Positions 50,219 to 56,664 of a stretch of DNA of 64,000 nucleotides are shown here, in pieces. Where the stretch lies: positions 1 through 64,000 of the forward strand of contig JAVEDE010000117.1 in the NCBI GenBank assembly GCA_030841105.1, given 5' to 3'. Made by a program: the position numbers and the translations under genes. The notes under the pieces were generated by a model. The model was not told where the DNA came from. It did no database searches and saw nothing but the letters and a program-made list of their open reading frames with translations. This stretch comes from Pyrinomonadaceae bacterium (GTDB lineage: Bacteria > Acidobacteriota > Blastocatellia > Pyrinomonadales > Pyrinomonadaceae). The first letter of the stretch is position 1; each line of letters begins with the position of its first letter.

Positions 50219-50305
50219 TAGTGACGAGTGAGGAGTGACAAGTGACGAGCAAAGGCAAGTTTTGTTGTTTCAACTCGTCACTCGTCACCCGTCACTCGTC
50301 GCTGC
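50219..50305. repeat. Heptad-arm palindromic element, GTGACAA family
   Basis: AGTGACGAGTGAGGAGTGACAAGTGACGAG pairs with CTCGTCACTCGTCACCCGTCACTCGTCGCT. The right arm encodes the last residues (TSDG) and stop of sbcD. Confidence 0.9.
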
Positions 50306-51712: not shown

Positions 51713-51799
51713 AATAATCACGACGAAAGCGCGCGGGCTGACGAACCCGGCGGGGGCGGCGAACGCGTGCGCTGTCGTGTGACTATTATACCTTAAAGA

Positions 51800-51885
51800 C
51801 AGTGACAAGTGACGAGTGAGAGGTGACAAGTTAAGGCAGAAATCTTGTCTTTAACTTGTCACCTGTCACTCGTCACTTGTCACTT
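51800..51885. repeat. Heptad-arm palindromic element, GTGACAA family
   Basis: AGTGACAAGTGACGAGTGAGAGGTGACAAGTTAA with right arm TTAACTTGTCACCTGTCACTCGTCACTTGTCACTT, nearly perfect 33-bp arms, 18-nt loop. It lies directly downstream of a minus-strand terminator-like hairpin. Confidence 0.92.
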
Positions 51886-51943
51886 AAAAAAGATGAAGCC
51901 CCCGCGACTCTGGGAATGAGTCAAATTTGGAAGCGGGGGCTTC
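51884..51943 (-). terminator. Y-shaped terminator hairpin of the candidate RNA
   Basis: The 11-bp stem 51895-51905/51933-51943 holds an inner 5-bp stem and is followed on the minus strand by a run of six T. Confidence 0.75.
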
Positions 51944-52075
51944 GGCTCCGGGCGGCGGCAGAAGGGAATACCGTATGTGCGCGGAGCGCAACGGTCTCTC
52001 GTGAAGGGGACGAGAGCCGAACTCGTAAAATCTCTCAAAGAGCTACACTGGCGGGCGCGGCGGTAGTGGGGAGTT
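51884..52075 (-). ncRNA. Candidate small structured RNA ending in a terminator
   Basis: On the minus strand this orphan region has the stems CTCTCGT/ACGAGAG and GCTCCG/CGGAGC. It ends with GAAGCCCCCGC/GCGGGGGCTTC (11 bp, enclosing GACTC/GAGTC), followed by ATCTTTTTT. The plus-strand ORF of 73 aa in the track shows no protein-like features. I could not match it to 6S, tmRNA, RNase P or any riboswitch known to me. The 5' end is not defined. Confidence 0.4.
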
Positions 52076-52110: not shown

Positions 52111-52332
52111 TCAACGACCGTGTTTCTGTCCTTGCGCCGTCCGCAGTAACTGTGAGGCTGCGACGGCATCGCACATAATCTTGTTGAGGGCATCTATGGC
52201 CGGGCGTGCGACGTGCTCGGAAATCTTCTTGCGCGCCAGTTGGAGCAACACCCCGCGGATCTCGGCGGGGGTCAGTTCGCCGTCGGGACTCTCCTCAAGT
52301 TTTTTCAATAACGCTTTCAAAAAACTCACCAC
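52111..52332 (-). CDS. Small hypothetical protein
   Basis: 73 residues with GTG start. It is amphipathic-helical: 'VSFLKALLKKLEESPDGELTPAEIRGVLLQLARKKI'. No Cys pairs and no membrane segment. The 'ELTPAEIRGVLLQLARKK' part looks like a helix-turn-helix-sized unit but without a diagnostic pattern. It lies 43 bp after the receiver gene on the same strand, so it could be cotranscribed from the sigma-54 promoter. Function unknown. Confidence 0.5.
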   Translation of the reverse strand: MVSFLKALLKKLEESPDGELTPAEIRGVLLQLARKKISEHVARPAIDALNKIMCDAVAASQLLRTAQGQKHGR

Positions 52333-52375: not shown

Positions 52376-52768
52376 TCAGGCCGCTTCGAGCCGCGCGGCG
52401 AGCGTCGAATGGCGCACGGTCGTGAGCAACTGTTCGACGTCGAGGGGCTTCGACAGGAAACCGTCCGCGCCCTGTTGGAAACATGCCTTCTTCGTCTCGA
52501 TGCTCTCGTCGGAACTGACGATGTAGACCTTCGAGGACGGGCACTGCTCCTTGAGATAGTCGAGGATGCGCAGGCCGACTTCGGGCGAATCAAGCACGGG
52601 GGGCATGTGCAGATCGAGTATGGAGATGACCGGCTCGAAGTGCGTCGCGTGGCGCATGGCGGAGGGAAAGTCGCTCGCCGTCGTCACGTCGTACTCGTCG
52701 CAGAGCGTCCAGTAAAGTTGCTGTCTGATGGCGGTTTCGTCGTCAACGATGAGAAGTTTCGGTTTCAA
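52376..52768 (-). CDS. Single-domain response regulator under a sigma-54 promoter
   Basis: 130 residues, receiver only. The acidic pocket is 'LLIVDDETAIRQQLYW', the phospho-Asp lies in 'ISILDLHMPP', and 'VSSDES' (Ser) and 'LSKPLDV' (Lys) follow. The 'LDLHMPPVLDSPEVGLRILDYL' pattern is close to the '[19 protein letters not shown]' of the neighbouring sigma-54 activator, suggesting duplication of its receiver. A consensus -24/-12 promoter is about 100 nt upstream, so the adjacent activator may drive it. Confidence 0.88.
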   Translation of the reverse strand: MKPKLLIVDDETAIRQQLYWTLCDEYDVTTASDFPSAMRHATHFEPVISILDLHMPPVLDSPEVGLRILDYLKEQCPSSKVYIVSSDESIETKKACFQQGADGFLSKPLDVEQLLTTVRHSTLAARLEAA

Positions 52769-52871
52769 CGTCTTGGTTCCTTTCCGCCACTCGCGCCTTT
52801 AGTAGAGCGTGCCTGCCACTGACTCTGAATAACTTTTCAACTCACTTCCTGTCTTACGCCGAACATACATC

Positions 52872-52886
52872 GCAACGCGCGTGCCA
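52872..52886 (-). promoter_or_regulatory. Sigma-54 (-24/-12) promoter
   Basis: On the minus strand the sequence is TGGCAC-GCGCG-TTGC, an exact match to the consensus TGGCAC-N5-TTGC. Transcription would start near 52860, giving a leader of about 90 nt before the receiver gene. Confidence 0.8.
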
Positions 52887-52971
52887 CAAGCCGCGCGCGA
52901 CGCAAAACAACCGTTTGCGCCGCAATCGCGCACTAACGGCCTGAACCGACGAGTCGCATGTGTGAACTAGA

Positions 52972-53002
52972 GTAGACAGGCGGGCGGCCGTGTGTAGACA
53001 GG
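52972..53002. promoter_or_regulatory. Possible enhancer (UAS) direct repeats for the sigma-54 activator
   Basis: GTAGACAGG occurs at 52972-52980 and 52994-53002, 22 bp apart (about two helical turns), roughly 85-130 bp upstream of the -24/-12 promoter, the usual place for activator binding. Confidence 0.4.
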
Positions 53003-53015
53003 AGAGGACGGACAG

Positions 53016-53100
53016 AAGTAGATCGTGAATCGTCAATCGTGAATAGAAAGAACTGAGTTTTATCTATTCGCGATTGACGATTCACGATTCACGGCTTTTG
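53016..53100. repeat. Heptad-arm palindromic element, TGAATCG family
   Basis: GTAGATCGTGAATCGTCAATCGTGAATAG pairs with CTATTCGCGATTGACGATTCACGATTCAC across about 18 nt, just before the activator's stop codon. Confidence 0.9.
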
Positions 53101-53110
53101 ATTCATCCCT

Positions 53111-54535
53111 TTAAGCAGTGATGTTGAGTTCGCCGATGAGGCGGTGGAAGTAGGAGCGGCTGATGCCGAGGCGTTTGGCGGCGGCGGCCTTGTTGCCGCC
53201 TTCGGCTTGCATGGCGCTGATGAGGAGGCGTCGTTTGAGTGCGAGCATCGCGCCTTCGAGCGTGGTTTCGTCGCCGCCGCCGTTGTCCGACGCGGCCGCA
53301 GTAGCGGCGGCCGGGCGGCGGATGTGCAGCATCTTTTCGGGGAGAAACTCCGTGCCGAGCCGCGAGCCGGTGGTTAAGACGACGAGCCGCTCCATCAGAT
53401 TTTCGAGTTCGCGGACGTTGCCCGGCCAGTCGTACTCCTGCAAGGCTTCGATGAGTTCGGGGTCGAGCGCGGCGGGCGGGCGGGCGTGTTTGTCGGCGGC
53501 CTTCGCGGCGAAGTGCGCGGCGAGGATGGGAAGGTCTTCGCGCCGCTCGCGCAGGGCGGGCAGTTGGAGCGGCACGACGTTGAGGCGATAGAAGAGATCG
53601 CGTCGGAAGCGTCCCTCTTCCACCTCCTGTTCGAGATCGCGGTTGCTGGCGGCGACGAGACGGATGTCCACGTTCAAAGTCTTCGTGCCGCCGAGACGCT
53701 CGAAGGCGCGCTCCTGCAAGACGCGCAGCAACTTCACCTGCACGGCCTGACTGAGTTCGCCGATCTCGTCGAGGAACAAAGTGCCGCCGTCGGCCAACTC
53801 GAAGCGACCCATCTTCGCCTGCGTCGCGCCGGTGAACGCGCCCTTCTCGTGACCGAACAGTTCCGACTCGATCAAATCTTCGGGGAGCGCGGCGCAACTG
53901 ACGGCGACGAAAGGCTCGTCGGCGCGCGGGCTTTCCTCGTGGACGGCGCGCGCGAGCATCTCCTTGCCCGTGCCGTTCTCGCCCGTCAAGAGCACGGTCG
54001 CGCTCGTCGAGGCGACGGCGCGCGCTTGCTTCATGATGCGTTCGAGCGCGGGCGAACTGCCGAGCAGGCGGCCGAAGCCGCGGCAGGCGAGGAGCGAGGC
54101 GCGCAGTTTCAAATTCTCTTCTTCGAGGTGGCGCACGCGCGCCGCCTGCCGGACGATGTGCGTAACCTCCGCCTCGTTGAAGGGCTTCTCGAAGAAGCCG
54201 TATGCGCCGCAGCGGATGGCTTCAAGCGCGGTCTGCCGCGAGTTGCTGCCGGTGATGACGACGACCGGAATGCTCGGTCGCGCGGCGCGCGCGGCTTCGA
54301 TGACGGCGAGACCTTCGCTGATGCCGTCGAGGTCGGGCGGCAGGTGCAAATCGCACAGCACTACTTGGACGCGCCCGCCGCGCAACTGCGCGATGGCCGA
54401 GGCGCGCGAGTCGGCTTCGAGGACGTGGTGCTCCGCGTCGAGCGCCCAGAAAAGTTGACGCCGCAAAACCTGATCGTCGTCAACGACGAGCACGGTCGCT
54501 TTGTCCGGCGCGGGTTCGGGCGTGGGTTCGGTCAT
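53111..54535 (-). CDS. Sigma-54-dependent response regulator (PrsR/NtrC-like)
   Basis: 474 residues. Receiver (~15-135) with phospho-Asp in '[14 protein letters not shown]', then AAA+ domain: Walker A '[10 protein letters not shown]', the sigma-54 contact loop '[10 protein letters not shown]', Walker B '[12 protein letters not shown]', and R-finger region '[14 protein letters not shown]'. A Fis-type HTH follows at the end ('[20 protein letters not shown]'). The '[12 protein letters not shown]' receiver is typical of PrsR, the activator tied to exopolysaccharide/PEP-CTERM genes. The kinase gene lies just upstream on the same strand. Confidence 0.93.
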
Positions 54536-54672: not shown

Positions 54673-56664
54673 TCAGTTGGCCGCGCCGGTCTTCGCAGTG
54701 GACTTCGCCTGCGAAGCCTTCTCCGCCGTGCGGGCGTGTGAGGCCATGAGCGGGATGGATGGTAGCACGACGCGGAAGCGCGTGCCAGACCCTAGCTTCG
54801 ATTTGACTTCGAGACGACCGCCGTGCGCCTCGACGATCTCGCGGCAGGTGTAGAGGCCGAGGCCAATGCCGCGCTTCTTCGTCGTCGCGAAGGCGCGGAA
54901 GAGGCGCGTCCGCATGAAGTCTTCGGTCATCCCCGGCCCCGTGTCTTCGACGCTGAAGTAGACGAGCGTGTCGCTCTCTTCCCCGGCCGCGACGGTGAGC
55001 CGCCCGCCACGCCCGCCCATCGCCTCGAAGGCGTTGACGACGAGGTTCTCCACCACGCGCTCGATCCGCTCGGCGTCAATCGGGGCGACGAGCGTGTCGG
55101 GCAACTCCGTCTGGATGTCGTAGAACTCGGCGCGCGGTTCGGCCGTCGCGGCCAGCACGCGGCGGATGACGGCGACGAGATCGGCCGGGTGCGGCGCGCG
55201 CCGGTATTCGCCGCTCAGCGTCTTGACCGGCTCGCTCAGGCGCGCGACGAGTGCGCCGAGTTTCTCCGTCGCCTGCCGGAGCGAAGAGACTGCGTCTTCG
55301 CGAAACTCCGCGCGGTGAAATTGACGCTCCATGTTCGTGACGAGCATCGAGAGGCCGGTGATGGCGTTTTTGAGATCGTGCGTGAGCATCGCCGAGAGAC
55401 GCACGAAGGATTGAAACTGCCGCGTCTCGGCCTCGCGCGCGATGAGTTCGCGCAGGCGGTCGCTCATCCGGTTGAAGCCTTCGGCCAGCGCGTGCGTCTC
55501 GTCGTTGGCGCGGACTTCGATGCGCTGGCTGAGGTCGCCCTCGCCGATTGTTTCCGCCGCCTCGATGACGCGCCGGATGCGACGCGTGGTGCGCGTGACG
55601 GTGATGAAGACGAGCAGCGTCGCCACGCCCGCGACGAGCAGGGCGAGCGTGAGCGACGTGAAGTTGTCGCGGTTGAGGGTCGCCACGGCGCGCGTGTAAT
55701 TTTCGGCGGCGGCCACCGAGAGGTCGCTGCCCGCGACCGGCCGGTAAGCGGCGAGCCAGCGCGTGCCGTCGGCCGCCACGGTGTAGAAATCCGTCCCGCT
55801 GTTGCCCGCCTGCATCGCGCGCGTGAAGTTGTCGAAGTAAGGCATCGCCGCGCCCACCGGCTGGTACTTGAGCGCGGGGCTGGTGTGATAGACGATCCGC
55901 CCCGCCCGATCCAGCACGAGCAGGGAGCGCGTGCTCTGCGTCGTCCCGACATTGACGACGCGCGCGGGCGCGCTCTGAGCGGGAGCGTTCGCGGCGTTCG
56001 CGTCGTGCCCGGCCTCTTGCAGCAGCGCGTCCAACTTCAGTTCGGCGACGAGCGCGAGGCGCGGGCTGCGCTCGCTGTCGGGCGAGAAGACGGGCACGGT
56101 GTAGACGATGCAGGGCGTGCCGTTCGCGTCGCGCGTCACGTTCGAGCGCAGGGGCTTCGGCTCGGCGGCCGTCCAGACGCGTTCGTCGAGTGGCAAACGG
56201 CCGGGCAGCAGGTCGCCCGGCGTCACGCGCACGGACGAGTTGCCCGCGTCCGGCGGCTCGAAGCGAATTGGCGCGCGCCCCGCCCCGGCCAGCGTGACGG
56301 CCGAGTAGTAATCGCGATTGTGCAAAACGAAATTGGCGACGGCCGCGCGCACCGCTTCGGGCAAGGCCGGTTCGTTCGCCGCGGGCGAACTATTAATTGC
56401 CGCAGGTTGCGCCCCGGCGGCGGCGACGCCGCGCACGTAGTCGCGCACCACACCCGCATGCGCCAGTTCGTTCAGGTCAACTTCGCGCGCGCGCAGCGCA
56501 ACTTCCACGTCGCGTGCGACGCGCGACGCCTCCGCCTCGACCCGCTCGCGCAGCATCCCCTCGACCACGTTCCGGCTGTTGCGATACGACACCAAGCCGA
56601 GGAGCAAGACCGGCACGAGGCTGCCGAGGACGAAGAAGATTAAGAGTTTGGTGCGGAGGTTCAC
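54673..56664 (-). CDS. Membrane sensor histidine kinase (PrsK/NtrB-like)
   Basis: 663 residues. First membrane helix at residues ~7-27, a large extracytoplasmic sensor domain (~30-340, Cache-like), second membrane helix 'LTLALLVAGVATLLVFI', HAMP ('IRRVIEAAETIGEGDLSQRIEV'), and the kinase core. The H-box is 'AMLTHDLKNAITGLSMLV', with HDLKN as in PrsK/NtrB. The N-box is 'VVENLVVNAFEA', G1 'VEDTGPGM' and G2 'GIGLGLYTCREIVEAHGG'. It is the probable partner of the downstream sigma-54 activator. Confidence 0.92.
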   Translation of the reverse strand: MNLRTKLLIFFVLGSLVPVLLLGLVSYRNSRNVVEGMLRERVEAEASRVARDVEVALRAREVDLNELAHAGVVRDYVRGVAAAGAQPAAINSSPAANEPALPEAVRAAVANFVLHNRDYYSAVTLAGAGRAPIRFEPPDAGNSSVRVTPGDLLPGRLPLDERVWTAAEPKPLRSNVTRDANGTPCIVYTVPVFSPDSERSPRLALVAELKLDALLQEAGHDANAANAPAQSAPARVVNVGTTQSTRSLLVLDRAGRIVYHTSPALKYQPVGAAMPYFDNFTRAMQAGNSGTDFYTVAADGTRWLAAYRPVAGSDLSVAAAENYTRAVATLNRDNFTSLTLALLVAGVATLLVFITVTRTTRRIRRVIEAAETIGEGDLSQRIEVRANDETHALAEGFNRMSDRLRELIAREAETRQFQSFVRLSAMLTHDLKNAITGLSMLVTNMERQFHRAEFREDAVSSLRQATEKLGALVARLSEPVKTLSGEYRRAPHPADLVAVIRRVLAATAEPRAEFYDIQTELPDTLVAPIDAERIERVVENLVVNAFEAMGGRGGRLTVAAGEESDTLVYFSVEDTGPGMTEDFMRTRLFRAFATTKKRGIGLGLYTCREIVEAHGGRLEVKSKLGSGTRFRVVLPSIPLMASHARTAEKASQAKSTAKTGAAN

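Follow-up and report, generated by a model that had tools for sequence, protein, structure and literature searches.

The closest named families for the activator and kinase described here are PrsR and PrsK, which are associated with PEP-CTERM/exosortase systems; in proteobacteria, a PrsR-linked motif of 17 nt that ends in TTTACA lies ~63 nt before the sigma-54 site (PMC1569441). A second relevant system is the enterobacterial GlrK/GlrR (QseE/QseF) pair, likewise a two-component system with a sigma-54 activator, which has the small RNAs GlmY/GlmZ among its products and in which GlrR/QseF recognizes the consensus TGTC-N10-GACA (PMC8745638). FixT, of the FixLJ system, and Osp, of the CckA/CtrA system, are receiver-like feedback inhibitors in which the acidic pair is missing and which do not undergo phosphorylation (PMC7078487, PMC9430884). 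Small RNAs with three C-rich-loop hairpins, variable stems and conserved loops are represented by sX13 in Xanthomonas and alpha-r14/NfeR1 in rhizobia.

The locus examined here comes from a group of uncultured soil Acidobacteria; it lies in a window of 64,000 nucleotides, by which the whole stretch of DNA analyzed is meant, and was compared with relatives that are all draft genomes, mostly from uncultured organisms. As a whole, it probably encodes a PrsK/PrsR-like system controlling a sigma-54 regulon that consists of C-loop RNAs and a phosphorylatable feedback receiver.

The proposed signaling pair and the lone receiver

Domain and family profiles identify a sigma-54 activator composed of a receiver, an AAA+ domain and a Fis-type HTH (HTH_8) at 53111–54535 on the minus strand, as well as a sensor kinase with a weakly matched dCache domain, HAMP, HisKA and HATPase domains at 54673–56664, also on the minus strand. 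The kinase adjoins the activator in relatives and is its proposed partner. A preliminary description of this DNA called the two proteins PrsR-like and PrsK-like, which holds as a resemblance but not as family membership. The activator scores 447.3 bits against PrsR (TIGR02915; curated cut-off 502.6) and 323.9 bits against GlrR (NF011695; cut-off 763), and the kinase scores 188.9 bits against PrsK (TIGR02916; cut-off 300), over its catalytic part only. Exosortase occurs both with the activator (18 of 19 genomes) and without it (15 of 18), and the system therefore does not track it. A true PrsK/PrsR system controlling PEP-CTERM genes was rejected on the basis of both the NCBIfam cut-offs and this distribution.

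The lone receiver (52376–52768, minus strand) is a 130-residue PF00072 protein with a TTG start. The window's own genome together with 59 relatives, 60 in all, contain 17 further orthologues at 51–97% identity, and the acidic pair (DD), the phospho-acceptor D, the S/T and the K, as read from the alignment, are present in all 18 sequences. Codon changes relative to genome G002 number 2, 2 and 17 at positions 1, 2 and 3, respectively. The lone receivers form a single clade (support 100/99) on a long stem, and they group with PrsR-type receivers with moderate support (91/83). Retention of the phosphorylation residues makes a phosphorylation-dependent role possible, whether as a sink or otherwise. 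The phosphate sink proposed in the preliminary description is accordingly only a tentative assignment for this protein, and another role, such as direct control of the kinase, is about equally tentative.

In such a role the receiver could serve as a positive output or regulate the kinase allosterically, for example by inhibiting autophosphorylation directly in the manner of FixT or Osp, which is possible but doubtful. FixT and Osp are themselves receiver-like and made under the control of the systems they inhibit, and the protein described here would similarly be a single-domain receiver produced by the system it is thought to restrain. However, the acidic pair absent from FixT and Osp is retained in 18/18 receivers here, and the four-cysteine motif of Caulobacter FixT was not seen among them; the two conserved cysteines lie elsewhere. 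Of these cysteines, C96 occurs in 18/18 and C23 in 16/18 orthologues, and the receiver domain of the activator has no counterpart of C23.

The sigma-54 promoter and its upstream palindromes

The predicted sigma-54 promoter, TGGCAC-N5-TTGC (52872–52886, minus strand), is the sole exact match in the window and lies 103 nt from the receiver start codon (52768, TTG), in agreement with the ~100 nt reported previously. A single occurrence in 64 kb, where 0.13 would be expected and 12 of 100 shuffles have at least one match, is only mildly unusual by itself, and it becomes convincing because of its conservation in relatives. Across the whole genome, the exact motif occurs 16 times, compared with three times for a reversed control. 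A GG-N10-GC element precedes nearly every receiver orthologue in Pyrinomonadaceae-type MAGs, such that both the -24/-12 signature and the upstream activator sites typical of sigma-54 promoters are kept in relatives. Transcription would be expected to start near 52860. A search for sigma-70-like promoters between 51700 and 53200 found none.

Two copies of GTAGACAGG (52972–52980 and 52994–53002, plus strand) lie 22 bp apart upstream of the promoter, and no shuffled sequence contained two. The preliminary description correctly reported this pair, but the direct repeat is not the binding unit, a candidate that was rejected because the orthologues carry palindromes at fixed places. Each copy is instead one half-site of one of two degenerate palindromes with the consensus TGTyyAC-N4-GTrrACA, centered in the window ~115 and 83 bp upstream of the -24 box. 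The promoter-proximal palindrome 2 (TGTCTAC-TCTA-GTTCACA; 52961–52978, minus strand; center at 83 bp) matches 12 of 14 consensus positions and has an orthologous counterpart at a similar distance, and palindrome 1 (CGTCCTCTCCTGTCTACA; 52993–53010, minus strand; center at 115 bp) matches 10 of 14. The latter is stronger in orthologues, with 14 of 14 positions in G012 and G008.

Comparison with relatives provides several lines of support for this arrangement. First, receiver orthologues usually have two palindromes, centered near 115 and 81 bp from the -24 box in most genomes. Second, 21 palindromes scoring at least 12/14 were found upstream of receiver orthologues, versus 0.2 in shuffles. Third, the enhancer-promoter spacing is nearly fixed in most genomes while the distance from promoter to start codon ranges between 48 and 171 nt, the pattern that a functional unit should show. 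The preliminary description had proposed conservation in relatives as a check, and promoter and enhancer are indeed kept before nearly all receiver orthologues. The combined enhancer-promoter pattern is present in 17/19 activator-positive versus 2/18 activator-negative genomes, and a reversed control gave no matches.

Activator orthologues were defined as clear matches at 66–100% identity, the next best match having at most 53%. Among 119 genomes of the family, 29 contain both receiver and activator, one the receiver only, four the activator only, and 85 neither. The receiver-only genome is 62% complete; in one activator-only genome the activator lies at a contig end, and the others are 67–87% complete. 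The high-quality genomes contain either both genes (15) or neither (54), and none has only the receiver or only the activator. Co-occurrence was evaluated by Fisher test, with the receiver and activator genome lists compared by hand, and the resulting p-values overstate the case because genomes of shared ancestry are not independent. Most receiver orthologues have the same setting as the window's, flanked by the activator on one side and by SbcD/LON/MoaE genes on the other. The kinase-activator pair is unlinked to the receiver in G011, G030 and G035, where the pair lies beside the same CysQ and DDC neighbors.

The co-occurrence of the activator with both the receiver and the enhancer-promoter pattern points to the adjacent activator as the protein that would bind the palindromes. 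Binding by a different sigma-54 activator is improbable: every genome does contain further NtrC-type activators (~41–53% identity), and one (G020) carries the RNA2 unit described below without the activator, but it is the adjacent activator that co-occurs with enhancer and receiver and adjoins the receiver in most genomes. The promoter is thus very likely driven by the adjacent activator, which the preliminary description had also named as controller and which is well supported by the fixed spacing of enhancer and promoter and by co-occurrence of receiver and activator even where the two are unlinked.

Structured RNAs at the receiver locus and at a second promoter

A gene encoding a 73-residue protein (52111–52332, minus strand) lies between the receiver and a structured element, RNA1. 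It exhibits 16 synonymous and four non-synonymous codon changes relative to G002, which indicates that the reading frame is coding and under purifying selection in this genus. Beyond the genus, it was found only in G006 (55% over 42 residues). Cotranscription of this gene with the receiver, as previously suggested, is plausible.

RNA1 (51886–52030, minus strand) contains three hairpins with CCC loops (51992–52019, 51945–51987 and 51895–51943), the last of which is a predicted terminator with a U tract. The fold z-score is -6.7 in the window and ranges between -3.5 and -8.3 across the folds tested. Both sides have changed in 19 of 31 base pairs, versus 6 in shuffles and 2–9 in slid controls, a covariation signal to be read with the caveat that the RNA1 and RNA2 alignments were fitted to their own covariance models. 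The stems diverge strongly among lineages and the loops are kept, with CCC present in 63 of 75 hairpin loops compared with 17% in shuffled sequences; the loop types are CCCC, UCCCUUC and CUGCCCA. RNA1 matches no Rfam family. Matches in the window to Rfam microRNA families were rejected as artefacts of inverted repeats. Near-perfect short inverted repeats occur in the intergenic gaps of the cluster (51798–51887, 53022–53088 and ~50220–50300; e.g. GTGAATCGTCAATCGTGAATAG) and resemble small mobile or REP-like elements.

The RNA1 core pattern was identified in 13 contigs among 84,980 species genomes, all from Acidobacteriota or Pyrinomonadaceae MAGs, and the receiver gene lies just upstream in 13/13, several of these contigs being from the same genomes as the receiver survey. 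A covariance model recovered additional members, including diverged ones in loci L178, L179 and L180, and another was recognized by inspection in L177; in these four loci the first hairpin begins 4–11 nt past the receiver stop codon. RNA1 was not recognized after the receivers of L074–L077 and L174–L176, and is thus not essential to every version of the system. A scan of a phage collection gave no matches. In the window, an SbcD/Mre11-like gene begins ~170 nt further along the same strand, and RNA1, with a terminator at its end, could in principle be a regulatory leader of that gene. This is highly improbable, since RNA1 stays with the receiver where the neighboring genes differ, including L178–L180, in which the next gene encodes a LON-domain protein and not SbcD.

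The receiver-type enhancer-promoter unit recurs upstream of a gene for a membrane J-domain protein. In the window's own genome, this locus (L107) is on contig C48, with palindromes CGTCTACTAGAGTGGACA and AGTCTACTTTAGTAGACA 22 bp apart, plus TGGCATAAACATTGC, and the gene (G000:C48:170107-170901, minus strand) encodes an N-terminal J domain and ~3 hydrophobic stretches. The J-domain protein is present in 37/37 genomes searched, at varying identity. An initial preference for it as the second target was abandoned, given that RNA2, a structured RNA of ~90 nt, directly follows the promoter and the J-domain gene starts ~300 nt further on. Judged by eye, that gene seems to have a -10 box of its own, and it may be reached by read-through from the RNA2 promoter. 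RNA2 is C-rich; its outer stem is long and variable, and it has an inner hairpin as well as a strand, GUCCUYGCCC(C), that is conserved. It covaries and has no match in Rfam. It occurs in the gap upstream of the J-domain gene at 16/16 activator-positive loci (two with weak E-values) versus 1/14 activator-negative loci, the exception being G020. The RNA2 promoter box reads TTGA instead of TTGC in G011, G030 and G035, and in G027 RNA2 is a weak match with no clear sigma-54 box seen.

Several further loci carry related elements. In G020 (L203, G020:C116), the RNA2 enhancer and promoter are present and the activator, kinase and receiver were not found, these genes being either lost or missing from the 87% complete assembly. 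Enhancer and sigma-54 promoters at L084 (G008:C2) and L094 (G032:C171) are followed by a hairpin with a AACCCCUC-type, CCCC-containing loop, possibly a third RNA family. Enhancer plus sigma-54 sites found in single genomes, L095 (G008:C102), L137 (G003:C41), L132 (G017:C71) and L142 (G011:C29), precede genes for a subtilase-like protein and for others, most of them membrane proteins; these are possible lineage-specific targets.

These RNAs bear on whether the promoter serves merely to make the receiver as a phosphate sink for negative feedback, with RNA1 no more than a terminator and 3’ UTR. The receiver does retain all phosphorylation residues and groups with PrsR-type receivers, RNA1 does end in a strong terminator, and several lineages do have a receiver without recognizable RNA1. 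Yet two more conserved hairpins precede the terminator, all three keep their CCC loops as the stems change, and what follows the other conserved promoter of this kind is an RNA rather than a receiver. The sink-only explanation is thus unlikely, and a functional RNA1 carried on the receiver transcript is, from its structure and conservation, quite probable. No clear G-rich pairing target for RNA1 was found at the kinase and activator starts, the only starts examined. A literature search covering part of the published work found no report of RNA1 or RNA2 in this bacterial group.

A proposed circuit and its relation to known systems

In the proposed circuit, the phosphorylated activator would bind the tandem TGTyyAC-N4-GTrrACA palindromes and switch on the promoter at 52872–52886. 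The transcript would begin near 52860, encode the receiver (and, in this genus, the 73-residue protein) and end at RNA1 with its own terminator, and a second enhancer-promoter unit elsewhere in the genome would drive RNA2. Both RNAs are probably antisense small RNAs acting on G-rich ribosome-binding sites, and the lone receiver, which resembles PrsR-type receivers and keeps its phosphorylation site, probably feeds back on the kinase-activator pair. With each of the two promoters expected to yield a new RNA, the output of the circuit seems to include RNAs in addition to proteins. More tentatively, the conserved output of the system in this family may consist of two C-loop RNA families that had not been described before, with one lying in the 3’ end of the feedback-receiver mRNA, such that a single transcript would supply an effector acting post-transcriptionally together with a brake on the signaling pair. 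The observation in the preliminary description thus stands and its interpretation is partly supported; it overlooked that the enhancer is palindromic, that a structured RNA lies downstream and that there is a further RNA target elsewhere in the genome.

For a little-studied and mostly uncultured phylum, this amounts to a specific two-component regulon that can be put to the test: the enhancer sequence is defined, the window's own genome has two of the promoters, and neither RNA family is in Rfam. Should the RNAs work as anticipated, the system would stand beside GlrR-GlmY as a separate instance in which a sigma-54 activator operates via small RNAs; a feedback receiver and a regulatory RNA on one transcript would be an unusual combination.

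The layout of enhancer and promoter is comparable to the PrsR-linked motif and sigma-54 site of proteobacteria. Unlike PrsK/PrsR, the conserved targets here are a receiver and RNAs, and the sensor part of the kinase differs. The best palindromes fit the GlrR consensus (TGTCTACAAATGTAGACA in G008), and the window's own sites do so only in part. However, the activator scores below the GlrR cut-off, the RNAs are unrelated in sequence to GlmY/GlmZ, and one of them is joined to a receiver gene. Similar to sX13 and alpha-r14, RNA1 contains three hairpins with C-rich loops, the last a terminator, with variable stems and conserved loops suited to pairing with G-rich start regions. In contrast to alpha-r14, its loops do not each carry an identical CCUCCUCCC, and unlike both of these RNAs, to which it has no sequence relation, RNA1 lies downstream of a receiver gene with a sigma-54 promoter.
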